Assembly (NCBI RefSeq): GCF_014697545.1
Contig: NZ_JACJSA010000006.1
Span: 124,001-188,000, forward strand
From: Oscillatoria sp. FACHB-1407
Lineage (GTDB): Bacteria > Cyanobacteriota > Cyanobacteriia > Elainellales > Elainellaceae
Reading direction: 5' to 3'
Length of the DNA: 64,000 nt
In this document: one piece after another, positions 32,318 through 45,120 of the stretch
How the letters are laid out: every line of letters starts with the position of its first letter
Numbering within the stretch: position 1 is the first letter of the stretch
Translations under genes and position numbers: made by a program
Notes under the pieces: generated by a model
Told to the model about the DNA's origin: nothing
The model's database searches: none
Seen by the model: only the letters and a program-made list of their open reading frames with translations

Positions 32318-33814
32318 ATGTCGTCTGACGAATTGCGTGCTGCTCGCCTCGAAAAAGTAAATCAACTTAAGCAACTGGGCTTCAATCCCTACGCCTACAA
32401 ATGGGATGTGACTCACCATGCAGCGGAGTTGCAAGAAAAGTATGCTGACCTCGCCAATGGGGAAGAGGTTGAGATTGAAGTGGCGATCGCCGGACGGGTT
32501 ATGAATCGCCGCGTGTTTGGCAAACTGGCTTTCTTTACGCTGCAAGATGAAACTGGGGTGATTCAGCTCTATCTGGATAAGAAAAAAATCCAGGAAAGCA
32601 TGGCGGAGACTGATTCCGATGCCTTTGAGCATCTGAAGCAACTCACCGATGCGGGTGATATTTTAGGGGTCAAGGGGTCGATTCGCCGTACGGAAAAGGG
32701 CGAACTGTCAGTCTACGTGGCTGAATACGCCGTGCTGACTAAGTCGTTGTTGCCGCTGCCCGACAAGTGGCATGGCTTGACAGATGTAGAGAAACGCTAT
32801 CGGCAACGATATGTCGATTTAATCGTCAACCCAGAAGTACGGGAAACCTTCCGGCGACGAGCACTGATCACAGCAGCGATTCGCCGTTACCTGAATCAGC
32901 AGGGCTTTATTGAGATTGAAACTCCCGTGTTGATGACAGAAGCAGGGGGAGCAGAGGCGCGTCCCTTTATCACTTATCACAACACGTTGGAGATGGAGCT
33001 ATATCTGCGGATTGCCACCGAGCTTCACCTGAAACGGTTGATTGTGGGCGGCTTTGAGAAAGTGTTTGAAATGGGACGGATCTTCCGGAATGAGGGGATC
33101 TCAACTCGCCATAACCCTGAATTCACCACGATTGAGCTATATCAAGCCTATGCTGATTATGACGACATGATGGCATTAACCGAAGCCATTATTGTCTATG
33201 CGGCTCAAGAGGTGTTGGGGACACTCAAGATTACCTATCAGGGGCAGGATGTGGATCTCACCCCACCCTGGCGACGGGTGACGATGCACGACTTGGTACA
33301 GGAAAAGACTGGGATTGACTTCACTCAATTTGATACGGTAAATGCGGCTAAAGCAGCGGCGGCAACCGCAGGCATTGATGCGAAGGACTGCGAAAGTGTA
33401 GGGCATGTGCTGAACGAAGCCTTTGAACAAAAGGTTGAGGAAACGCTGATTCAGCCGACGTTTGTGATCGATTACCCGGTTGAAATTTCACCGCTAGCCA
33501 AGCCCCACCGCAGTAAGCCCGGATTGGTGGAGCGATTTGAGCTGTTTATGGTGGGACGTGAAACCGCCAATAGCTTCTCGGAGTTGACCGACCCCATTGA
33601 CCAGCGAGAACGCTTCGAGTTGCAAGCGGCGCGTAAGGCAGCAGGTGATTTAGAAGCTCCGGGAGTCGATGAGGACTTCTTAACGGCTCTGGAATATGGG
33701 ATGCCGCCCACTGGAGGGATGGGCATGGGAATCGATCGCCTCGTGATGCTGTTGACGGATTCTGCCAGCATCCGCGATGTGATTGCCTTCCCGTTGCTTA
33801 AACCCGAAGTTTAA
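32318..33814 (+). CDS. lysS: Lysyl-tRNA synthetase, class II
   Basis: 498 residues from ATG 32318. The open frame runs 34 codons further 5' through a pyrimidine-rich repeat ([17 protein letters not shown]), which is not part of the family. It charges tRNA-Lys. The OB-fold anticodon domain ([20 protein letters not shown]) is followed by motif 1 ([18 protein letters not shown]), motif 2 ([20 protein letters not shown]) and motif 3 ([16 protein letters not shown]). No Shine-Dalgarno is visible; TTTCTTTCCTCCT lies directly before the ATG. ldh follows at 33910 on the same strand. Confidence 0.97.
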
Positions 33815-33909
33815 TCGGGACAATCTGCCAACGGCGATGTCCCAGCCGTAATGTGTAGCGATCGCCCCAACCTCGCGCTAGGATTCCAGTGGAGTTGTGG
33901 GGCGTGTCT

Positions 33910-34995
<1,086 letters not shown>

Positions 34996-35160
34996 GACCA
35001 CTAACTCCCACCATCAGTTAACTGCAACTCCCTTCCCTCTTCCTTCTTCCTTCTTCTTTTTTCCTTCTTCTCCCTTCTCTCATCCCTCAACTCAGAGTCC
35101 AAAATGCTATAGTCAACTCAATTGCTGTAAAGCGATTTCTCAATTGCAAGACATATCACT

Positions 35161-35748
35161 ATGAGACGTAGACCAAAAGCACCTCCCCGATCGCCTTCAA
35201 GACCTCCTCTAGATCGGGATGTAGAGCGTCCCTCTAACGGTGGAGGGCGATCGCCCCTAAGTTCGGCATTTAATTATGTCAACATTGCCATTATTGCGGC
35301 CGTGTTTATTTTGGGCATTGGTATTGGGATTGCTTTTAGTTCAACGGCTAGCTTTAGCCCTGAGAATGTGGCATCCCGTGAGGTGATTGACCGCAGTGCC
35401 CCTAACCCTGAGTTGTGTCAGCAGTTTGGAGCCAGTGCGATCACGATGGATATGCGGGCGTTTGTCACCTTGAACCCGTTTAGTGTGTATGTGTCTCAAC
35501 CACGGATGGAACCGGGTTGCGTCCTGCGGAATACGAACTGGGCGGTGTTGGAGCGTAAGAACCTGATTAACCAGCAACAAGTGAACCAGTGTCGGCAACG
35601 GATGAATACGTTTGCGTTTACGGGAGATATTGAGGTGGGTACGGGCAATCCGAAGGTAGATTGTGTGTACCAGAATGATGCGGCTCAAAACCTGTTCTTG
35701 AATCAACCTGGGTTTGGTGCGTCTCCTCCTGAAACCGATCGCTTCTAA
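35161..35748 (+). CDS. DUF3172 membrane-anchored protein
   Basis: 195 residues, recognised as DUF3172 (found in cyanobacteria and plastid-bearing lineages). The basic, Pro-rich N-terminus (residues 1-38) contains a HIP1 site in its DNA. One membrane segment is at about 40-60 (NIAIIAAVFILGIGIGIAFS). The outer domain has four cysteines (in PELCQQFG, PGCVLRNTNWAVL, VNQCRQRMN and KVDCVYQN) that could form disulfides. The motif FVTLNPFSVYVSQPRMEPGC is typical. Function unknown. A good terminator follows at 35790. Confidence 0.85.
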   Translation: MRRRPKAPPRSPSRPPLDRDVERPSNGGGRSPLSSAFNYVNIAIIAAVFILGIGIGIAFSSTASFSPENVASREVIDRSAPNPELCQQFGASAITMDMRAFVTLNPFSVYVSQPRMEPGCVLRNTNWAVLERKNLINQQQVNQCRQRMNTFAFTGDIEVGTGNPKVDCVYQNDAAQNLFLNQPGFGASPPETDRF

Positions 35749-35789
35749 GGTCGAGTTAGTTTGGCTAACAATCTAAGATTTTGAATTCA

Positions 35790-35816
35790 GAAAGGCGAAG
35801 TTGATTCGCCTTTTTT
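35790..35816 (+). terminator. Rho-independent terminator after the DUF3172 gene
   Basis: AAAGGCGAA and TTCGCCTTT form a nine-base-pair stem with a five-base loop, running into TTTTTTG. It marks the left edge of the accessory island. Confidence 0.88.
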
Positions 35817-35881
35817 GTTGTTTAATGGTCTCCTGCGATCGCCCCTATCAATGACAAACACGCGATCGCCCTCATCCATGA

Positions 35882-35914
35882 AGATCTCCGACTTTTTCAA
35901 AAAGTCGGAGATCT
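35882..35914. repeat. 33-bp perfect inverted repeat
   Basis: AGATCTCCGACTTTTT and its complement, AAAAAGTCGGAGATCT, are separated by a single base. It lies 30 bases after the stop of the nuclease gene (minus strand). No T run follows on the minus strand, so it may be a terminator of a non-classical kind, an operator, or an island-edge relic. Confidence 0.75.
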
Positions 35915-35943
35915 GTTTGCTCTTAGCTAATATCTGCGGTTGT

Positions 35944-37392
35944 TCACTCAACAGGTAAATCGCGTAGGTAATAGAAGCGATCGCGCCCATCATTGCCTTT
36001 TCTTCGCCCTAAATAGCCTGTAAGAGGAGAGGACAGTTCAACCAAAATCTCACTTAGTTCTTCTCGATTTAAGGACTGAGGTGGATTGTCAAAACCATAA
36101 ACTGCATGAAGTTGGTCAAGATCCACATCGTCATAATGCGAGTTATCTAGGAGACGTTTCACAAGTTGAACAACATGAGATCTTAGTTTCGCTGCTTGGA
36201 TACTTCGCTCAATAAACTTTTCGACCTCATCATCGGCTTGACCACCGACGAGACAGGCTTTGAGCTTGAATAGGTCAATCGGGTAGTCGTGATGAAGCTT
36301 AACGAGTTTTTCAAGGGTTGAAGGGTTGATGATTGCCATACCGTGTTTTTTAGCTGCTTCTTTTAATTGTTCGGTGGGTTCACCAGGGCCGATGATTACT
36401 TTTGCAGATTTGTTGAAAGTTTCTTTGTCTTCAAGACGGATTGTTCCAAGATTTAAGAGTTGAACAGCTGTATCGTTTGGAATCTTTCTACCTGCTTTAC
36501 ATTCACCAACTAAAGAGTAAGGCTTTGAACAGAATAAATCTAACCCTCCTGCACCACCTTTGTGGGATTCATCAACAGTAAAGCCCAAAAATATAAGACT
36601 GTCGCGCACTATATTTTCAAAATCTGTTCCTGCTTGATAGCTACTTTTACCAGTATCTTGCTCCTTACTACGATTACCTAAATCTGTAATAGTTCCAATC
36701 CAAGCCAATTCTGAATTTATTTTCTTATGTGAATCAGCAAAGCCTAAAAATGACTTAATGTCATCTTCTAATTCTTTAGCTGATGGATAAGAGTGACCCA
36801 TTTTAGAGAGTTCTTCCTGTAAATTCTCTAATTCAGGATATGGAGATGGTTTAAGCTCAAGAATTTTTTGCTTGCATTGAGCAAAGGTTTTCTCATCTAA
36901 AACGGGTGAGATCCTAGTTACAGAAATAGGATTTTGCATAATAGCAAACTGTCCTTTCTGTTTAAGTAAAACCTCAACTATTGGCTGTAGTTTATAGACA
37001 CGTAAATGAACTAGAAATATTCGCTGTTGTTGAGATAACAGTGCTTTCAAAGCTTCTACAGTCCAAACGGTCATTTTGGACAGAGTTGATAGTGAAGCAG
37101 TATTGTCAATAATTTGGCAAGATTCACATTCTGCCCATGCGTGAACTGTTTTCTTTGGTGTACTTAGATCTATACTTACAGACTTATCTGAAGCAATCAA
37201 ACTTGAATGATACCAATCTTTAATTGATAAATTTACATCAACTTCTGATGGACATAAAGCAAATGTTCGTCCAGCTTTAATAAACATCTTGGAGCTACAG
37301 ACTATTGTTCTCCCTTCAATAAGAGCATTAATTTCAATTGAAGGTAGACTGAGAGCAGTTGAAATTAGAACTGAATTATCCTGCAATATCAC
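35944..37392 (-). CDS. DUF1802-like domain fused to a PD-(D/E)XK nuclease
   Basis: 482 residues from GTG 37392. The N-terminal 150 residues resemble DUF1802: IEINALIEGRTIVCSSKM, HAWAECESCQIIDN and LVHLRVYKLQPIVEVLL. After a helical linker, residues 253-365 form a PD-(D/E)XK nuclease core: AGTDFENIV (Glu259), GAGGLDLFCSKPYSLVGECK (Asp285, Glu297, Lys299), then TAVQLLNLG. All catalytic positions are intact, so DNA or RNA cutting is expected. The C-terminal 110 residues are unassigned. The start overlaps the end of the ATPase gene by 17 bases, so translation is coupled. AT-rich and with only one HIP1 site (near the stop). No such fusion is known to me; the domain calls are by eye. Confidence 0.75.
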   Translation of the reverse strand: MILQDNSVLISTALSLPSIEINALIEGRTIVCSSKMFIKAGRTFALCPSEVDVNLSIKDWYHSSLIASDKSVSIDLSTPKKTVHAWAECESCQIIDNTASLSTLSKMTVWTVEALKALLSQQQRIFLVHLRVYKLQPIVEVLLKQKGQFAIMQNPISVTRISPVLDEKTFAQCKQKILELKPSPYPELENLQEELSKMGHSYPSAKELEDDIKSFLGFADSHKKINSELAWIGTITDLGNRSKEQDTGKSSYQAGTDFENIVRDSLIFLGFTVDESHKGGAGGLDLFCSKPYSLVGECKAGRKIPNDTAVQLLNLGTIRLEDKETFNKSAKVIIGPGEPTEQLKEAAKKHGMAIINPSTLEKLVKLHHDYPIDLFKLKACLVGGQADDEVEKFIERSIQAAKLRSHVVQLVKRLLDNSHYDDVDLDQLHAVYGFDNPPQSLNREELSEILVELSSPLTGYLGRRKGNDGRDRFYYLRDLPVE

Positions 37393-39622
37393 CTTGTTGT
37401 TCCTTTAGTTGCCTCTCTAAGAGATACTTAGCTCGAACTAGCTGAATTTCGTCATAGGTATAGCTGTCACTCAAATGTTCGCGGATACTCCTCAAAGAAG
37501 AGATATTACTAGTTTTTTCGATCGCCTTTCTAATTTGAACTTGTCGCCTTACGGGTACTAATAAATCTAGATTAATTGCCTGATTCATTTCAATCATTTC
37601 GACAAAATGGCGAGTGATTGTACTACGACTAAGGCGACGTTTTTGAGCAATCCTTCCAAGAGTTGAACCTTGCTGATGTAACTCAAATGTAGCGAGTTGA
37701 GTTTTAGATAGCTGAGATAAATCTGGCTTTGTATCTTCCGGAGTAGCAACTGTTTGTTCTACTAAATCAGCGACATCCTCGGAAGAAGTTTCAGAAGAGG
37801 GTTCAGATACAGCTTCTAAAGTTTTGATTACGGCATCTTCATCAGTTGCTTCATCAGGAATTTGCCCTGAGGGATCGCTAAGAATCTCTCGAATCAGTGG
37901 GTTATCGAGAATAAGACGATTTTGATCAATAAATTGATAGAACTGCTCTTCCTTAAAGCCATAATTTTCTAGTTCTCTAGAAATAGTCCTTAATGCAATT
38001 AAAGGTCTAACTTCTTCTTCCTTTAAAAGAATCCACTCACCACCCATCTCCTTAAGAAGTTTTTGAAGCTCTTTATAGGCATCCCAATTCTCATCAATTG
38101 TTTTTGAACGTATTAAACAACCACGAGTGATATTGAATGTTTGGTACTGCGTGAGACGTCTTAAACCTGCACTCACTGTTTTGCCATGAGCATCTTGCAA
38201 CACAGAAACTCCAATCTTGACATCCTGGTTGTTCTCCTTACCAAGAACCTTAAACTTGATAAATCCCTTATTTTCAGATTTAGGTACTACTTCCTTATCT
38301 AAATCCTCAATAGTTACATTTTCCAGAGTTTGGTTCTTTAGGTAGCTGAATGCAAAGGTAAGTGCATTTGTAATCTTTTCGTTGTCTTCGAGAAAATCTT
38401 CAATGCTCTCTTCAGTTTCTTGGTAAATTCGCTCGATTTTCTCTCCTACGTCAATACTTGTTCCAAAATTATCTGCACACCAACGTAGGACTTCTCTAAT
38501 CGTTGCTCCTGAACCAATCTCTTTGAGGTGCTTCTCATCAAACGGATAAACTTTATGGGGAGGAGTCAAACCATACCTAGCATAAAAATCTTCCAACCAG
38601 CCAGACACTAACTCAATTGTCTCCTCAGACTTCAGAGTATTTAGTTCAATAGTTTCTTGAGCAATACGATCTTCAACAGCATTAGCTCCAGAAAGAGTTC
38701 TTACCTCAGTAGTGAAAGTACTTTGGTACATTGAGGTAACAATTAGTCCTTTCTTTAAGTTGTTGTATAAATCCTTCGCCAGATTAGCAACTATCTGTGC
38801 TCTTGTATAACCTGCGTTATAACAATCATCTTCATCACCAAACTCTGCTCCATCTAGCTCATCAAAGCAGATTACTGGAGTCATATAGTGACCCACTAAA
38901 TTTAAAGTTTCGTATGCATTGTCAAACGCTGAAACTTCCTTGTCCTCACGAGTAGAGTTAGGCAAATTCATCACTTCAGCCTGAGCTTGTGTTAGTTCTC
39001 TTCCGGCTAACCAATTAATTGCAAAAGGAGCATGGGTTGGTGAAAGAGTCCATACAAGAGCTTGAATAATATTAGGATCGCTAACATCCACTTTAAGCAA
39101 AATCTTCTCAGTAAGTTGGTTTGTAATTTTAGGGTTTTTAGCTAAAATTCTGTGAAATTGGTTGACCAATTGTTGAGGAGTAAAATCTTTTTGTAGAGCT
39201 TGTTTTACTAATGCAGTGGCAATCTCCTGACACTGCATCACGCCATAAGCTCCTCGTTTTCTTAAACTGGCTGCTAACCCTTGTAAAAACTGTTGTTTAA
39301 TATGGCTGAGATTTCCATATTCACACATATAGACAAACAATCCACCTCCTTGTTCTTGTACATGATGACGGATTCGACTTAAAACATGGCTTTTCCCAAT
39401 ACCTTTAGGTGCAAGGAGAGCTACTCCAAAGGTTGAAAGATTACCAGACTTCATCTTTTCTATGATTTCAATTATTCTGTTAGACGCATGAGCGTGTAAT
39501 AACGGAACGTCAGGAAACTCTTCTCCCCAAACTTGTTGAGACTTTACAACCAATCGTCCATCAAATGGATTATTGCTTTTGATTATTTCGTTGATTTCCT
39601 CTAGGGAAGACTGCACAGACAT
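37376..39622 (-). CDS. Large P-loop ATPase with C-terminal helicase-type HTH
   Basis: 748 residues. An N-terminal ATPase shows Walker A APKGIGKSHV (residues 71-80; first Gly replaced by Ala), Walker B PVICFDELDGAEF (Asp254-Glu255) and a sensor-like LIVTSMYQST (about 293-302), like AAA+/STAND ATPases of mobile and defence systems. Residues 450-550 are a mixed alpha/beta region (FIKFKVLGKENNQDVKIGVS) of unknown type. An acidic linker (585-635) precedes LSKTQLATFELHQQGSTLGR and RRLSRSTITRHFVEMIE, which match the HTH_40 domain found at the C-terminus of RecQ-type helicases. ATG 39622 has AGAGGT upstream. No HIP1 site in 2.2 kb. Probably the motor or sensor for the downstream nuclease. Confidence 0.75.
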   Translation of the reverse strand: MSVQSSLEEINEIIKSNNPFDGRLVVKSQQVWGEEFPDVPLLHAHASNRIIEIIEKMKSGNLSTFGVALLAPKGIGKSHVLSRIRHHVQEQGGGLFVYMCEYGNLSHIKQQFLQGLAASLRKRGAYGVMQCQEIATALVKQALQKDFTPQQLVNQFHRILAKNPKITNQLTEKILLKVDVSDPNIIQALVWTLSPTHAPFAINWLAGRELTQAQAEVMNLPNSTREDKEVSAFDNAYETLNLVGHYMTPVICFDELDGAEFGDEDDCYNAGYTRAQIVANLAKDLYNNLKKGLIVTSMYQSTFTTEVRTLSGANAVEDRIAQETIELNTLKSEETIELVSGWLEDFYARYGLTPPHKVYPFDEKHLKEIGSGATIREVLRWCADNFGTSIDVGEKIERIYQETEESIEDFLEDNEKITNALTFAFSYLKNQTLENVTIEDLDKEVVPKSENKGFIKFKVLGKENNQDVKIGVSVLQDAHGKTVSAGLRRLTQYQTFNITRGCLIRSKTIDENWDAYKELQKLLKEMGGEWILLKEEEVRPLIALRTISRELENYGFKEEQFYQFIDQNRLILDNPLIREILSDPSGQIPDEATDEDAVIKTLEAVSEPSSETSSEDVADLVEQTVATPEDTKPDLSQLSKTQLATFELHQQGSTLGRIAQKRRLSRSTITRHFVEMIEMNQAINLDLLVPVRRQVQIRKAIEKTSNISSLRSIREHLSDSYTYDEIQLVRAKYLLERQLKEQQGDIAG

Positions 39623-39670
39623 AGATACCTCTAGGTTGAAAGTTTAGGGAGAAAGATGAAGGAAGTTAGG

Positions 39671-40348
39671 TTATGCACTCATCCGTTTAGCATAACAACG
39701 TAACTTTCCTAACTTTGTTGTAATTGAATCTTCGATCTTGTCTGGAGCACTGTCTTCAATACTCCCCTCTAATAACTGAAAAACATCATTAGTTTGTAGT
39801 TCTAACATCCATTCATTGAAATTAGAGCGAGAAACCCGATCGCCAATTTCACGACGAATCCGATAGATAGGCACTAGATTGTCTAGGTTGTAATCTTTGT
39901 TCAAGCGATTATAGGTTTCCAGTGCAACTGTCTTAAACGCTTCATAAGACTCGATCGCCCCAGATGCTTTCTTGCCGTTGCCATTCGTTTCAGCTTTGCC
40001 GAGGGTTCCATCCATTTCGCGTATCCACTTTAAGAGTGCATTTGCTGTTTTCGCTCCAACATTTGAGGCAAAAGTAAATTCAGCGTTACTCAAGTTCTTC
40101 CCTAATAAGTTGGCTCCCTGATCCGTCAAAGAAACTGTGGCTTTAGTCGTGGCGATCGCCCCATCCTTCTCTAACTGATCCAACAGAGGCTTGTAATCAC
40201 TGCTTTTTTGTCCTTTTGGAACAATTCGCTTTGTCAGATCTCCTTGCTTTACCTCCCTGCCAACGCCTCCCAGATCCCAGAGGGCAAGCAAAACACGAGT
40301 TGTATTGCTCAATTGAGTTGGACTGGTCTTTGTTTTGGTGGTTGCCAT
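39671..40348 (-). CDS. Winged-helix protein, first gene of the ATPase-nuclease operon
   Basis: 225 residues. The N-terminal 85 residues read as a winged helix: TTRVLLALWDLGGVGREVKQ, LTKRIVPKGQKSSDYKPLLD, then LEKDGAIATTKATVSLTDQG (wing). A variable middle with GKAETNGNGKKASG links to a second conserved block, NLVPIYRIRREIGDRVSRSN, then FNEWMLELQTNDVFQLLEG, with a shape like a second winged helix. It ends KLRCYAKRMSA. It could regulate the operon or recognise DNA for it. The gap to the ATPase gene is 48 bases. It has one HIP1 site. No family name can be given with confidence. Confidence 0.7.
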   Translation of the reverse strand: MATTKTKTSPTQLSNTTRVLLALWDLGGVGREVKQGDLTKRIVPKGQKSSDYKPLLDQLEKDGAIATTKATVSLTDQGANLLGKNLSNAEFTFASNVGAKTANALLKWIREMDGTLGKAETNGNGKKASGAIESYEAFKTVALETYNRLNKDYNLDNLVPIYRIRREIGDRVSRSNFNEWMLELQTNDVFQLLEGSIEDSAPDKIEDSITTKLGKLRCYAKRMSA

Positions 40349-40850
40349 AATGAATTGCTCAAATAAGGAATAAGGCTTAACGTAATTTCCTTTAGGAGAG
40401 TACCCACAGATTTCGACAGAATCTCAGATGTCTCTGTGGAATTACTAACAGTTTTTATGTGCACCCTTACTTAGTTATGCAACCTAAAATCCTTATAGAA
40501 CAAGGCTTTACAAATAATTGATACTTGCTGTGACTCACTTTTTCAAAACTTCGTAAACCTCTTCATTTTTAGTTGAAATACATCAATAGTTTTTGATGCA
40601 AATTCTTGGTATTTCACCCTATATACTCTTGCAGAATTACAACTGGTGATTGAGAAAACTCTATAGATGCAACTACACTTCTTGTGTGTTCTGGCAGTCC
40701 GCACATAGCCCGCAATTGATTTGCGATGGTTGTTATAAGCAGTGCAAAATCTGAGCTTCAAGGGAAGCCTTGCCGTGAGCCTCAGTTACAAGCCAACCTC
40801 CAAACGCAAACTGGCAAAATTTGAACCGTTATAGATTCGGCTCCTTCACA
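40349..40850. other. AT-rich upstream region of the winged-helix operon
   Basis: 502 bp without a gene I would support. It presumably holds the leftward promoter of the operon. A 72-codon minus-strand ORF (40543-40761) has poor composition and no ribosome site. No tRNA or integrase is visible. Confidence 0.5.
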
Positions 40851-41102
40851 TATAAGCTTTGTTTAAGCAAAAGCTAGAAAGATATAAGCATTAGCTGCAA
40901 TCATTCAAACGAGAGTAACTCACGTTCAAACAAGTATAAGTTTCGTTTAAGCAAAAGCTAGAAAGATATAAGCATTAGCTGCAATCGTTCAAACGAGAGT
41001 AACTCTCGTTCAAACAAGTATAAGTTTCGTTTAAGCAAAAGCTAGAAAGATATAAGCATTAGCTGCAATCGTTCAAACGAAAGTAACTCTCGTTCAAACT
41101 TA
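40851..41102. repeat. Three exact-length 84-bp tandem repeats
   Basis: Three head-to-tail units start at 40851, 40935 and 41019, each 84 bp and over 90 percent alike. Each begins TATAAG(C/T)TT, continues GTTTAAGCAAAAGCTAGAAA and GATATAAGCATTAGCTGCAA, and ends with an inverted repeat AACGAGAG-TAA-CTCTCGTT. No spacers lie between units, so it is not CRISPR. The array lies about 500 bp upstream of the winged-helix gene and 320 bp before the 41425 gene. It could be an operator array or encode a repeated small RNA. Confidence 0.9.
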
Positions 41103-41160
41103 CCTAACGTTTATTGCAATTTTTGCAATCATCGGTTCAACTAACCTATCTCAACACAGA

Positions 41161-41265
41161 TATAGCTTTGGTCAGAAAGCTTAAGGCAAAGACAATGGTT
41201 CAAACCCTGATGCTGGGGAAGCTGCCTGACTCGCCTCCGCCACATTGAATGTGGCTACGGCTAGA
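41161..41265 (-). repeat. Interspersed repeat family C, copy C1
   Basis: About 105 bp that in reverse complement matches 49118-49222 and 55060-55164. Its ends (TATAGCTTTGGTCAGAAAGC here, and TGTGGCTACGGCTAGAG) are weakly inverted. The shared core includes GCATCAGGGTTTGA and GGCGGAGGCGAGTCAG. Confidence 0.85.
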
Positions 41266-41424
41266 GAAACACCATCTGATTTTTATCTGATCTCAGTAAT
41301 AATTACTAAACTTTGAGAGCAGTTATTAAGATGGCTTCAAAACTTGCTAGTTTTTCCTCAGGTCAGTCTCTAAATTCTCTGGATAGAGTGTTTTTGTAAA
41401 CCCAATTCAGGGATCTACTGAGTC

Positions 41425-41874
41425 ATGCCAAGACGTAAAAGAAACTCTGCGCCATTACAACGGACTAAACGTCGCCTTGAGAGTATTTTGTCCATTCATC
41501 CCAATCTTGATTTAGGCGGTGGACTTACGACTGAAGCTTACGCTGCTACCATCAACGATCTGGAAATCAAGCTAGCGGCTTACAACACCGCGCTTTCTGC
41601 GATTGACAAACTCGCTGATGATGTCAAAGCGGCCGAGCAAACCGCGACAGAAATGTCAGAAAAAATGCTGCTCGGCATTGGCAGTCGCTACGGCAAAACT
41701 AGCCAGGAATATGAAATGGCAGGAGGGGCACGCCGCCGCAGCAGACGCCGCTCTATCAGACATACGGCAACGACTGCGACAACAACTAATGCTGTATCAA
41801 CACCCTCAACCAACGGTTTCGCTGCCAGTGGTTTCACGTCGAATGGCACCTCTGTAACTGCATCTTATGGTTAA
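41425..41874 (+). CDS. Small basic/helical protein of unknown function
   Basis: 149 residues. The basic start (MPRRKRNSAPLQRTKRRLES) precedes a helical middle (TINDLEIKLAAYNTALSAID, KLADDVKAAEQTATEMSEKM), then GSRYGKTSQEYEMAGGARRR. The last block resembles the YGKxSxEYExxGG(T/A)R motif found in small proteins of many cyanobacteria and other bacteria. The Thr/Ser-rich C-terminus (about 40 residues) looks disordered. It lies alone within the island between the 84-bp array and the PPC-propeller gene. Function unknown. Confidence 0.6.
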   Translation: MPRRKRNSAPLQRTKRRLESILSIHPNLDLGGGLTTEAYAATINDLEIKLAAYNTALSAIDKLADDVKAAEQTATEMSEKMLLGIGSRYGKTSQEYEMAGGARRRSRRRSIRHTATTATTTNAVSTPSTNGFAASGFTSNGTSVTASYG

Positions 41875-41911
41875 AAATGTGGATTGGATAACCTGAAGAT
41901 TTGTAAGCTCT

Positions 41912-41939
41912 GTAGGGACATGGCATGCCATGTCCCTAC
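41912..41939. repeat. 28-bp perfect palindrome
   Basis: Perfect palindrome with half-site GTAGGGACATGGCA, 37 bases after the stop of the 41425 gene. It could act as a terminator, but no T run follows. Its AGGGAC core also occurs in the 28-bp palindrome at 16757. Confidence 0.8.
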
Positions 41940-42110
41940 TTAGTAAATTGAACTTTAATAAATTTGCAGCCCTCTAAGTTGATGGAGTGAATTAAGGCTG
42001 AGTGGTCGGATCTCGACTATGCTCACCCCTGCTATAACGGAAGTTTGAGCATTGAGCGAAGTCGAAATGCGTTTTACAAGCCGTTATGTCTCTTAGAAAT
42101 TTTTAACCAC

Positions 42111-42223
42111 AGGACTTATGCAGTTAGATCTCTCAAACCCCATTAGAAAAGGGGCTTCCGGAATTTCCCCCTCTCAAGGGGCTAGGGGGGATCAAAGTTT
42201 TAGGCTTCAAGTGCGTAAGTTCT
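42111..42223 (-). mobile_element. MITE-like element family B, copy B2 (uninterrupted)
   Basis: 113 bp with ends AGGACTTATGCA and TGCGTAAGTTCT (inverted repeats, 10 of 12 matching). The inner sequence is the reverse complement of B1 at 29843-30118, but without the family A insert: GATCTAAC joins TGCATAAGTCCT directly. No coding capacity. It lies upstream of the PPC-propeller gene. The rest of the 489-bp gap 41875-42363 shows only the palindrome at 41912. Confidence 0.8.
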
Positions 42224-42363
42224 AAATCATTTGAAAATCTTGTGAAGCCCTAGTAAAAATACCGAACTATTTCAAACCCCATGTTAGTCTCTATACAAAT
42301 TACATCTTTAACAGCAGTATCAAGATTTAACGCGATTCAATCTAACATTTGGGGTGATTAAAG

Positions 42364-44019
42364 ATGGCAACGACAAGTCAAATGAACAATAGTTTGAGGT
42401 CGGCGCGTAACATAGGCAATTTGACAAATAGCCGTCGAATCCAAAGAAGTTTACTAAGTCCATCTGACTCTCAAGATTACTTTCGATTTAATGTCTCTAG
42501 TCAAAGCAATTTGACGCTTTCCCTAACGAATTTAAGGGCAAATGCAGATGTTTTTTTATTGGATTCAAGGGGTCGCCTGATAAAGGCTTCTACTAAAGGT
42601 GGAACACGCTCTGAACTGATCCAAACCATCTTAAATGCAGACACTTATTTTGTCAGAATCCTTCGTCGTAGTGGAACAACCCGCTATACACTTCAACTTA
42701 ACTCTGCGGTTCTTGCTCCAAGCCCTAACCCAAATCCTACGCCAAGTCCTAGTCCTACACAGAATCCTACGCCAAGCCCAAGCCCAAGCCCAACATCAGC
42801 TTCTCAGAGAACGCAGGAATGGATTAGACAAATTCCTACAGATAACCCTGCTGCGGCAACGGCTGCTTTTAACTACTCGGGTGGGTTAGCCATTGACTCG
42901 TTTGGTAATACCTTTGTCAGCGGTTACTCTAACAGCCCGATCGCTGGAGGAAACCAAGCTGGTTTCGATGATGCCTGGTTCGCGAAGTATGACAATACCG
43001 GAAATCAACAATGGATTAGGCGTATTGCAACTAATACTAACGATTACATTCGAGGATTAAGCACAGATCCTGCTGGCAATATTTACCTGGCTGGATTGAC
43101 GCTGCACAGTAGTTCTACAGGATCAGCTGGTTTTATCGCTAAATACGACACCAATGGTAATCAACTTTGGATTGATAACTCGTTGAGATCAAATACTCTA
43201 GGTGATATTCCTGAGGTCAGCGATATCGCGATCGATCGCTCTGGTAACTTATATATTACAGGAGTGACCGCTGGCTCTTTAGGAGGTACAAATCCTAGGA
43301 ATTTTACGTTTGATGCTTGGGTAGCTAAATACGACAGCAATGGCAGCCGTCTTTGGATTCGTCAACTTGGTACGGCTGAATCTGAATCATCAACTAGTAT
43401 TGCCGTAGATAGTTTGGGTAATGCTTATATTGGCGGCACAACGTCTGGCGTTCTAGGTACGTCCAACGCAGGTGGTTCAGGAGATGCCTGGTTTGCCAAA
43501 TATGACACAAACGGCAGTTTGCAGTGGGTTCGCCAATTTGGAACTTCTGGAATTGGTAATGAAGCAGTCAGCGGTATTACTGTTGATAGTTCAGACAATG
43601 TTTATTTAACTGGCGATACGGCAGGTGCTCCTGGGCAACTCTGGGCTGAGAACAAACCATGGCTAGTTAAATACAATGCCAATGGTGATCGCTTGTGGTC
43701 TACTCAGTTTGGAACCTTTCTCACTGATTCTTCTGATATAGCTGTTGATGGAGGCAACAATATCTATACAGTAGGTAGAACTCAAAATGCTTTTGGTTCT
43801 TCGTCTGGTGGTTGGAATGCTTACTTTGCCAAGTTTGACAGCAATGGCGTTAATCAATGGGGCGAGATTTTAAGCACATCCTCAGAGGATCGGACAAGTG
43901 CTATAGCCCTTGATAGCTCGAACAACATTTATATGTCTGGTATCACAGGTGGTTCACTTGGTAGAACGAATCCACGTGAACCCGTTTGGGATGTTTGGGT
44001 TGCTAAGTACCGTCAGTAA
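42364..44019 (+). CDS. PPC domain plus SBBP-type beta-propeller protein
   Basis: 551 residues. Residues 12-118 form a pre-peptidase C-terminal (PPC) domain: DSQDYFRFNVSSQSNLTLSL, ADVFLLDSRGRLIKAS and TYFVRILRRSGTTRYTLQL. A Pro/Ser/Asn linker (residues 119-155, repeats of PSPSPTQNPTP) leads to about seven 55-residue blades with the SBBP pattern DAWFAKYDxxGNxxWIRxxG and DSxGNxYxxG. No signal peptide is present, although this type is usually outside the cell. It is rich in Asn/Ser/Thr and without HIP1. Function unknown; binding or adhesion is likely. Confidence 0.85.
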   Translation: MATTSQMNNSLRSARNIGNLTNSRRIQRSLLSPSDSQDYFRFNVSSQSNLTLSLTNLRANADVFLLDSRGRLIKASTKGGTRSELIQTILNADTYFVRILRRSGTTRYTLQLNSAVLAPSPNPNPTPSPSPTQNPTPSPSPSPTSASQRTQEWIRQIPTDNPAAATAAFNYSGGLAIDSFGNTFVSGYSNSPIAGGNQAGFDDAWFAKYDNTGNQQWIRRIATNTNDYIRGLSTDPAGNIYLAGLTLHSSSTGSAGFIAKYDTNGNQLWIDNSLRSNTLGDIPEVSDIAIDRSGNLYITGVTAGSLGGTNPRNFTFDAWVAKYDSNGSRLWIRQLGTAESESSTSIAVDSLGNAYIGGTTSGVLGTSNAGGSGDAWFAKYDTNGSLQWVRQFGTSGIGNEAVSGITVDSSDNVYLTGDTAGAPGQLWAENKPWLVKYNANGDRLWSTQFGTFLTDSSDIAVDGGNNIYTVGRTQNAFGSSSGGWNAYFAKFDSNGVNQWGEILSTSSEDRTSAIALDSSNNIYMSGITGGSLGRTNPREPVWDVWVAKYRQ

Positions 44020-44097
44020 CGACTACGCCAAAATCTGCGTTGATGCGAGCCTTCCCGTAGGATAATTTGAGGGTTCAAAACGTTGTCAGTGGTTCTC

Positions 44098-45120
44098 ATG
44101 GATTATCGGGAAGCGGGTGTAGATGTCGTTGCGGGGCGCAATTTTGTCCAGCAGATCCGCCAGTTAGTTGAAAGCACTCGTCGCCCAGAAGTCTTGGGCG
44201 GTTTGGGGGGCTTTAGTGGGTTGTTTCAACTGCCAACGGGCTATCAAGAACCCGTGTTAGTCTCCGGCACCGATGGCGTGGGAACCAAACTCAAACTGGC
44301 GCACCAGTGCGATCGCCACGATACGGTTGGGGTGGATCTGGTGGCAATGTGCGTCAATGACGTTCTTACCTGTGGAGCGGAGCCACTGTTTTTTCTTGAT
44401 TACCTGGCGACAGGCAAATTAAACCCAGAGCAACTGACGCAGGTGGTGTCAGGCATCAGCGAGGGATGTCGCTTAGCAGGATGCGCTCTGTTGGGGGGTG
44501 AAACCGCTGAGATGCCGGGGTTTTATCAACCGGGAGAATATGACCTGGCAGGTTTTTGTGTCGGCATTGTGGAGAAGAGCCAGATCTTAGATGGGTCGCA
44601 GGTACAAGTGGGAGATGTGGCGATCGCCCTCGCCAGTCAGGGCATCCACAGCAACGGCTTTAGTCTGGTTCGCAAAATTGTGGAAGTGAGTCAAACCCAA
44701 CTCGACCAACCCGTGCCCTGGCAGGAGGGACAGTCGTTTGCTGATGCTTTGCTTACTCCGACGCGCATCTACGTCAAGCCTGTGTTAGCCGCTCGACGGG
44801 AGGGGCTAGCCATTCACGGGATGGCACACATCACCGGAGGGGGTTTGCCCGAAAACCTGCCGCGTTGTCTGGGCGAGGGGCAATCGATTCGGGTCAATCC
44901 TCAAAGCTGGTCGATTCCCCCTATCTTTGAATGGTTAGCCACGACAGGGAATGTCGCCACTCCTGAGATGTTTAACACCTTCAATATGGGGGTTGGGTTT
45001 GTGCTGTTAGTGCCTCCCCATGAGGCGGAGCAAGTCATTCGCTGGTTTGAGTCGCAGGGGTTACCTGCCTGGGCGATCGGTGAGGTCATTGCCGGGTCGG
45101 GGGAACTCGTTTTTCAATAA
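44098..45120 (+). CDS. purM: Phosphoribosylformylglycinamidine cyclo-ligase (AIR synthetase)
   Basis: 340 residues from ATG 44098; a TTG five codons upstream (44083) is possible. PurM closes the imidazole ring (FGAM to AIR with ATP) in purine synthesis. Motifs: [82 protein letters not shown] and [13 protein letters not shown]. Normal length. This is the right edge of the HIP1-poor island: HIP1 reappears in this gene (about 44309). Confidence 0.97.

Follow-up and report, generated by a model that had tools for sequence, protein, structure and literature searches.

What purpose do three adjoining genes, encoding a winged-helix protein (gene 1), an ATPase (gene 2) and a nuclease (gene 3), serve in the cyanobacterium Oscillatoria sp. 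FACHB-1407? The trio lies on contig NZ_JACJSA010000006.1, within a stretch of 64,000 nucleotides (positions 124,001 to 188,000 of the forward strand), the whole of which is called the window below. A first-pass annotation described it as a candidate undescribed operon of defence type. The favoured answer is that the trio is a resident restriction-type system directed against invading DNA, a reading given a probability of about 0.65. A defence role is strongly suggested by the fixed composition of the trio, the predicted folds and conserved residues of its proteins, and the immune-like behaviour of its locus. The window holds a member of an already predicted kind of operon, and what is new here is that member, with its unusual ATPase tail.

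The three genes form a conserved unit. Two overlapping sets of loci (L numbers below; some genomes are common to both) were compared: 40 fetched around matches to the ATPase core in 386 genomes of the phylum, and the best 80 of 254 stretches confirmed from a named GTDB collection by their nuclease, a choice that biases the second sample towards close relatives. Open reading frames (ORFs) were called with a greedy script rather than a gene finder. The order winged helix-turn-helix (wHTH) gene, ATPase, nuclease is found in 37 of the 40 ATPase-reached loci and 73 of the 80 nuclease-reached loci, so the genes are not the rare companions that would speak against an operon. The three remaining ATPase-reached loci include two with the ATPase alone (L057, L060) and one whose contig stops before the nuclease position (L066). 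Among the 73 ordered loci, gene 1 is fragmentary in L113 and extra genes are interposed in L104, L115 and L142; the seven without an ordered trio comprise contig ends (L094, L116, L124, L148), split ATPase frames (L078, L083) and one degraded locus (L144). Because the same three genes recur in the same order across many cyanobacterial genera, the layout exceeds what chance would produce. Over 75 trios, genes 1 and 2 stand a median of 47 bp apart and genes 2 and 3 a median of 2 bp, and L095 and L139 hold tandem trios. Of the 80 named records, all but one are cyanobacterial; the exception, L109, is a contig of a planctomycete metagenome-assembled genome that may be misbinned, and its neighbours match those of the cyanobacterial locus L108.

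The window's own copy is compact and compositionally distinct, much as first described. The three genes share a strand, with a 48-bp gap between genes 1 and 2 and a 17-bp overlap between genes 2 and 3, and the ORF coordinates agree with both figures. The fraction of G and C is 0.389 for 35944-40348 versus 0.494 for the 64-kb window. The HIP1 motif (GCGATCGC) occurs 99 times in the window, and its reported absence over 36.0-40.1 kb is borne out: the two largest HIP1-free gaps are 35977-40152 and 40152-44309, of which the trio fills the first. The host genome (8.13 Mb, rich in HIP1) yields one match each for the nuclease, gene 1 and the ATPase. All eight trio loci compared in the family of the window (L205-L212) have a trio richer in AT than the flanking DNA; the same is true of the variant locus L214 and not of the variant L213.

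Carriage of the trio is common and patchy. In one cyanobacterial family, 149 of 192 genomes carry the nuclease at E <= 1e-20, a count that takes in partial copies, and at least seven genera among the genomes listed contain both carriers and non-carriers, which marks the trio as common but dispensable. Across the phylum the ATPase query matches 118 of 386 genomes, many through the RecQ-type HTH tail alone; the ATPase core is present in at least 57, counted among the matches listed. In the window's own family an ATPase match is found in 10 of 36 genomes, the window genome counted, one of them (G551) having a divergent pair only, without the nuclease. Divergent pairs of an ATPase (678-689 aa) and a wHTH protein (273-287 aa) without the ASCH nuclease occupy L213:7300-10246 and L214:8223-11166, the latter followed by an 894-aa protein. 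ATPases of the family also stand at L057:8858-10894 and L060:7563-9473 with neither nuclease nor gene 1 in the fetched stretch, and the L060 ATPase adjoins what by eye is a vWA-type protein.

The locus itself evolves in an immune-like manner. Among the Nostocales, a frequent position of the trio is between fpg-mdh on one side and pgi-livM-livG on the other, and at least one of fpg, mdh and pgi is found in the fetched flanks of 48 of the 73 ordered loci. At this mdh-pgi site the trio is about 2 to 3.5 times as divergent as its neighbours: median amino acid distances over the same loci are 0.36-0.37 for gene 1, 0.53-0.55 for the ATPase and 0.41 for the nuclease, versus 0.15-0.19 for fpg, mdh and pgi. 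Distances of the housekeeping genes correlate with one another (rho 0.69-0.94, n 17-28); those of gene 1 correlate with the housekeeping distances at rho 0.64-0.74, those of the nuclease at 0.49-0.53 and those of the ATPase at 0.09-0.33, the lowest value, 0.09, being that for pgi. The trio genes correlate mutually at 0.40-0.57 (n 73). In 200 permutations the observed value was reached in none of these comparisons except ATPase versus pgi, where it was reached in 15. From these correlations the ATPase looks to have been exchanged. Trios with a divergent ATPase, 28-30% identical to that of the window, are found in L061-L065; three of these loci, with 28% identity where other occupants of the mdh-pgi site have 38-46%, stand at that site, both sides being seen in L065, the pgi side in L062 and the mdh side in L063. 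The nearest relatives of the window genes, among those compared, differ from gene to gene: L208 for the ATPase (53%), L210 for gene 1 (64%) and L076 for the nuclease (58%).

Loss and replacement are visible at the same site. Of the 43 trio-less genomes of the 192-genome family, the 20 that were listed were inspected at the pgi locus. In L187 and L188 the flanking genes are kept and the trio is reduced to a scrap of the nuclease 3' end; these scraps are old deletions. In L190 the site holds an SLFN_AlbA_2 plus TPR protein and a reverse transcriptase that the names of its PADLOC models assign to the retron kind (RT-Protease_XI, E 1e-137; Pfam RVT_1), and L189 carries a 1060-aa NACHT-domain protein (Pfam E 9.5e-14) that is matched by no PADLOC model at E <= 1e-5. 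The other 16 of the 20 were uninformative, rearranged at the site or truncated there by the end of a contig. Replacement by a retron-type reverse transcriptase, a NACHT protein or a scrap, fast divergence, and the differing nearest relatives of the three genes together argue for immune-like evolution. The stretch L190:4272-6583 is possibly a retron of unlisted make-up.

The third protein is predicted to be a working nuclease. AlphaFold (AF2) models of the nuclease and ATPase were made with 48 sequences each; the nuclease model has a mean predicted local distance difference test score (pLDDT) of 84 and a predicted template modelling score (pTM) of 0.58. Its PD-(D/E)XK core resembles N.BspD6I (2ewf, Z 14.0), FokI (1fok, Z 13.5) and HindIII (2e52, Z 10.9). 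The site residues named at first pass, Glu259, Asp285, Glu297 and Lys299, are intact in this FokI-like predicted core, and each of the four, counted residue by residue, is conserved in 118 of 119 distinct relatives. A non-catalytic fold is thus not what the prediction gives. Foldseek alone returned no match to the nuclease model at E <= 0.001, with FokI at the top at E 1.2e-3, and a PDB sequence search returned none at E <= 1.

Ahead of this core, Pfam places DUF1802 (E 1e-21, aa 13-175), which folds like EOLA1 (5y7d, Z 9.2, 135 aligned, 3.4 Å), CXorf40A (6kir, Z 9.1) and TTHA0113 (2dp9, Z 8.8). Foldseek matches ASCH domains (TRIP4, ZmASCH) to the model at E ~0.1, and the comparisons, consistent in kind, point to an ASCH/PUA-like reader. 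A second DUF1802 match lies elsewhere in the host genome in an open frame of 202 aa, and DUF1802 also turns up in the control genomes of Synechococcus elongatus and Deinobacterium chartae, two of the 14 searched.

The ATPase core is, by its model (mean pLDDT 84), of the ORC/Cdc6 kind. In VIA-align, whose comparison covers the families that it lists, the core fits Orc2 (1w5t) at Z 15.2 with 236 aligned residues and 3.4 Å and Cdc6 (1fnn) at Z 15.1 (236-238 residues for the two), and it also resembles MuB (8xvb, Z 13.8), TnsC (7plh, Z 13.7) and RdrA (8hr8, Z 13.3). Foldseek on its own matched only p97 at E <= 0.001, and the two superpose poorly; a PDB sequence search at E <= 1 gave P-loop matches at E 0.027 or worse, and Pfam gave a weak AAA_16. 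The Walker A and B motifs seen at first pass hold throughout, with K77 and D254 unchanged in all 120 relatives compared. At position 255, 102 of these have E and 14 have Q, while R and D occur twice each; the glutamine after the Walker B aspartate in those 14 might mean slow ATP hydrolysis.

Two further parts of the ATPase bear on its kinship. Residues 405-532 follow the strand-helix order of a restriction-endonuclease (REase) fold, with no obvious acidic site in the model, and an inactive REase is suggested. The region has neither a fold match nor a profile match to an active nuclease core. In a profile-profile comparison of eight domain alignments no different domains matched each other, the sole high score being that of a piece against a stretch containing that piece; the candidate inactive REase is thus without sequence support. 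The RecQ-type HTH noted at first pass is present (HTH_40, Pfam E 5e-22) and proves private to the window member among the ATPases compared, so far as their sequences tell: HTH_40 is missing from all other trio ATPases in the ORFs of the 120 loci compared (L032-L151). Alignments with the closest ATPase relatives, L208 (631 aa, 53%) and L211 (split frame, 52%), stop near residue 615, and in the host genome the HTH_40 stretch matches nothing but the trio ATPase, though three RecQ_Zn_bind matches exist there. A RecQ-type HTH as defining feature of the system was ruled out, since the other trio ATPases of L032-L151 lack it.

Gene 1 was first taken for a regulator; a DNA-recognition subunit is more likely. 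Pfam gave weak winged-helix matches and nothing stronger, and a PDB sequence search at E <= 1 gave three chance-like rows. From its sequence the protein appears to hold two winged helices, a third having no support here. Its C-terminal domain recurs as two copies per large protein in IMG/VR viral contigs, at L152:4444-5730 (+) and L154:1770-4388 (+), and these contigs look Mu-like by eye. At L098:3564-4814 (+), just upstream of a trio, a 416-aa ORF of the malate/lactate-dehydrogenase family matches the gene-1 profile (77 bits) besides its Ldh domains, perhaps as a fusion.

The trio is, in all likelihood, an operon that has already been predicted, matched by composition and not by accession. 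One clause of PMC10853773 (NAR 2024) predicts a counter-invader operon of an Orc/CDC6 ATPase, an ASCH-REase and a DndG-like triple-wHTH protein, there unnamed and with no experiment given; an inactive REase lies between the AAA+ core and the C-terminal wHTH of the ATPase, and the operon is placed in mobile gene neighbourhoods. Alike here are the ORC/Cdc6-type AAA+ ATPase (predicted from Orc2 at Z 15.2 and Cdc6 at Z 15.1, with Walker residues kept), the predicted active REase (Z 13.5-14.0) fused to an ASCH-like domain (Z 8.8-9.2, a modest match), and an apparently multi-wHTH protein as third component. Where that clause has a triple wHTH, gene 1 (225 aa) combines weak winged-helix Pfam matches with a second, repeat-like domain; the window ATPase carries the extra HTH_40; and where mobile neighbourhoods are described, the Nostocales show one recurrent site with replacements, neighbourhoods in other lineages being varied. 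That an operon of the same composition has been predicted to act against invaders counts for the favoured reading. The first-pass label "undescribed" is wrong, since the operon stands in PMC10853773 as a prediction; no PADLOC (2023) model of a listed system recognises the three proteins.

Several characterized systems share features with the trio. In the parts of PMC10853773 concerned, SspC is an ORC/Cdc6-type ATPase, and SspB and DndG are multi-wHTH recognition subunits, that of SspB with a triple wHTH. The trio resembles Ssp and DndFGH in this pairing; unlike them, its proteins include no phosphorothioation enzymes (the genome was not searched), and its nuclease is built differently. Central ORC/Cdc6-clade ATPases are also described for BREX and related systems, BrxC being of this clade (PMC12839542, in the portion consulted). 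Unlike BREX, the trio proteins include a nuclease and neither methylase nor PglZ, and the three gave no BREX match in PADLOC. PUA-superfamily readers occur in restriction systems (PMC7641849, PMC12707154), and type IV modification-dependent enzymes join such readers to nucleases, as in EVE-HNH VcaM4I and EVE-PD-(D/E)XK proteins (PMC7897488, PMC7641849), according to the sections bearing on them. The fusion of a PUA/ASCH-superfamily reader to a nuclease domain is shared with the trio; its ASCH-type reader and its constant ATPase and wHTH partners are not. A reading of the trio as one of the systems listed in PADLOC, BREX and Zorya among them, was rejected, since those models do not recognise the three proteins.

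On the restriction-type reading, the winged-helix product of gene 1 would bind DNA jointly with the ORC/Cdc6-type AAA+ protein, the AAA+ subunit presumably forming an ATP-dependent ring or filament where the winged helices choose sites. The DNA-bound wHTH-ATPase complex would license the nuclease subunit, whose ASCH-like domain would inspect bases, probably for a modification state, and whose FokI-like PD-(D/E)XK core would cut invading, presumably foreign, DNA. As first noted, no methylase lies within the three-gene unit; the cassette would thus need either a mark on the invader, as in type IV systems, or a host mark made elsewhere. For the reader domain, a passage in PMC11037411 records an ASCH protein that acts on N4-acylated cytosine.

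Several points weigh against this reading. Defence systems do not usually show the fixed synteny seen in the Nostocales or an occupancy as high as the 78% of one family, and both features would also suit a chromosomal role particular to the lineage; the recurrent neighbours are housekeeping genes, and gene 1, from its distance correlations, looks largely vertical in descent. No ATPase relatives were found in plasmids, no nuclease relatives in phages, and neither ATPase nor nuclease relatives in viral contigs, so no instance of horizontal spread was seen. Against PADLOC (2023), the three proteins gave a single match at E <= 1, that of the nuclease to ZorD (E 0.007). The match of DUF1802 to an ASCH/PUA-like reader is modest (Z ~9), and ASCH domains as readers of DNA N6-methyladenine are predicted, not shown, in the relevant part of PMC11037411. 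The open-licence literature yielded no experimental study of the trio.

The strongest rival holds that the trio processes chromosomal DNA in filamentous cyanobacteria, in repair, replication restart or developmental genome handling, with the ORC-like ATPase loading at damage or forks and the nuclease trimming. Its presence in 149 of 192 genomes, the conserved chromosomal site among housekeeping genes with fpg (MutM, DNA repair) often near, the gene 1 distances that track those genes, and the RecQ-type HTH_40 borrowed by the window ATPase all favour such a role. Yet the trio is missing from single species of otherwise-carrying genera, with remnants in two, and immune-type genes take its site in two other genomes; it diverges more than its neighbours, and the three window genes have different nearest relatives. 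Nor is it general, with the ATPase core in at least 57 of 386 phylum genomes, and no known core pathway was found for it. Chromosomal processing is therefore considered unlikely. Also unlikely is a bolder form of the immune reading: a near-core locus of filamentous cyanobacteria in which an ORC-type loader would search DNA and an ASCH-bearing nuclease would let the host's solitary genome-wide methylation determine whether it cuts, with modules exchanged between versions at a dedicated site that in other strains takes a retron-type reverse transcriptase or a NACHT protein.

Domesticated or still mobile transposition machinery would combine a TnsC/MuB-like ATPase, a TnsA-like nuclease and a winged-helix protein choosing targets. 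TnsA joins a restriction-type nuclease to a winged helix, the AAA+ fold is shared with TnsC (Z 13.7) and MuB (Z 13.8), and the gene-1 domain occurs in the viral contigs of Mu-like appearance. Unlike Tn7 and Mu, however, no transposase is among the three conserved genes (neighbours and ends were not searched for one, and terminal repeats were not looked for), the nuclease has an ASCH-like domain, Orc2 and Cdc6 fit the ATPase slightly better than TnsC, and synteny is fixed in the Nostocales; the idea is improbable. The same holds for a selfish addiction module of toxin-antitoxin type, in which the nuclease would kill cassette-losing cells and gene 1 would be repressor or antidote: a winged-helix protein could act as repressor, and tandem copies and the association with a recurrent small gene pair would suit it, but absences within genera are not rare, and the size and ORC-type ATPase are unlike any addiction module known to us.

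Coordinates of the genes and their domains are collected in Table 1.

Table 1. Genes and predicted domains of the trio, in window coordinates.
Feature	Residues	Position	Strand	Basis
Gene 3, nuclease	482 aa	35944-37392	minus	ORF list
DUF1802, ASCH/PUA-like fold	aa 8-162	36907..37371	minus	Pfam and fold comparison
PD-(D/E)XK nuclease core (predicted)	aa 225-399	36196..36720	minus	Fold comparison
C-terminal winged helix of nuclease	aa 400-482	35947..36195	minus	Zur 3mwm, Z 10.8, 69 aligned, 1.5 Å
Gene 2, ATPase	748 aa	37376-39622	minus	ORF list
AAA+ core (predicted)	aa 13-387	38462..39586	minus	VIA-align of AF2 model
Candidate inactive REase	aa 405-532	38027..38410	minus	Secondary structure of model
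HTH_40 tail, RecQ-type	aa 641-730	37433..37702	minus	Pfam E 5e-22
Gene 1, winged-helix protein	225 aa	39671-40348	minus	ORF list
N-terminal winged-helix region	~aa 15-115		minus	Weak Pfam winged-helix matches
C-terminal domain of gene 1	aa 126-223	39680..39973	minus	Winged-helix-like by eye

The defence claim of the first-pass annotation is partly supported: the conserved unit and defence-like locus evolution favour it, and among the neighbours scanned, genes of known defence systems adjoin the trio only now and then. The trio as a typical defence-island gene set was ruled out, the recurrent neighbours being housekeeping genes. Directly beside the trio are Shango-type SngB (E 1e-176) and SngA-like (E 3e-22) genes in L119 and a HEC-02 pair (E 1e-154, 2e-66) in L108; a mads-2-like match was placed among the neighbours in L098. 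The scan drew on 195 proteins of at least 150 aa that are encoded no more than 6 kb away and belong to clusters present in fewer than three loci, and 177 of them were run against PADLOC; it gave 31 and 43 families at E <= 1e-10, some of them not defence-specific, with no control set alongside. It also matched a reverse transcriptase, Cas1, a type II restriction enzyme and methylases, whose host loci were left untraced. Next to the trio, a gene for a retropepsin-like protein is repeatedly paired with one for a small protein of ~105-120 aa (L103:11531-12207; L139, L038, L062); their clusters occur in 18 and 20 of the 80 loci and are repeated several times in some. Near the window trio, at 33889-34905, lies a lactate/malate dehydrogenase-family gene 32% identical to Nostocales mdh and unlike it in orientation, probably a coincidence. 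Rfam over 33000-43000 of the window gave no match. Profile searches of the three proteins gave, besides DUF1802 in the nuclease, HTH_40 with a weak AAA_16 in the ATPase and a weak winged helix in gene 1, nothing convincing in NCBIfam or PHROGs.

As reported in PMC8195603, multicellular bacteria, among them cyanobacteria, commonly have regulated conflict systems, and the distribution of the trio fits this pattern. If the favoured reading is true, filamentous cyanobacteria, in which phage defence and transformation barriers are of practical weight, would possess a widespread restriction-like system that is experimentally untried. DUF1802 would gain a function as an ASCH-like reader, and another ORC-type ATPase would have been recruited to immunity. 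The mdh-pgi site is a place to seek further cyanobacterial defence genes.

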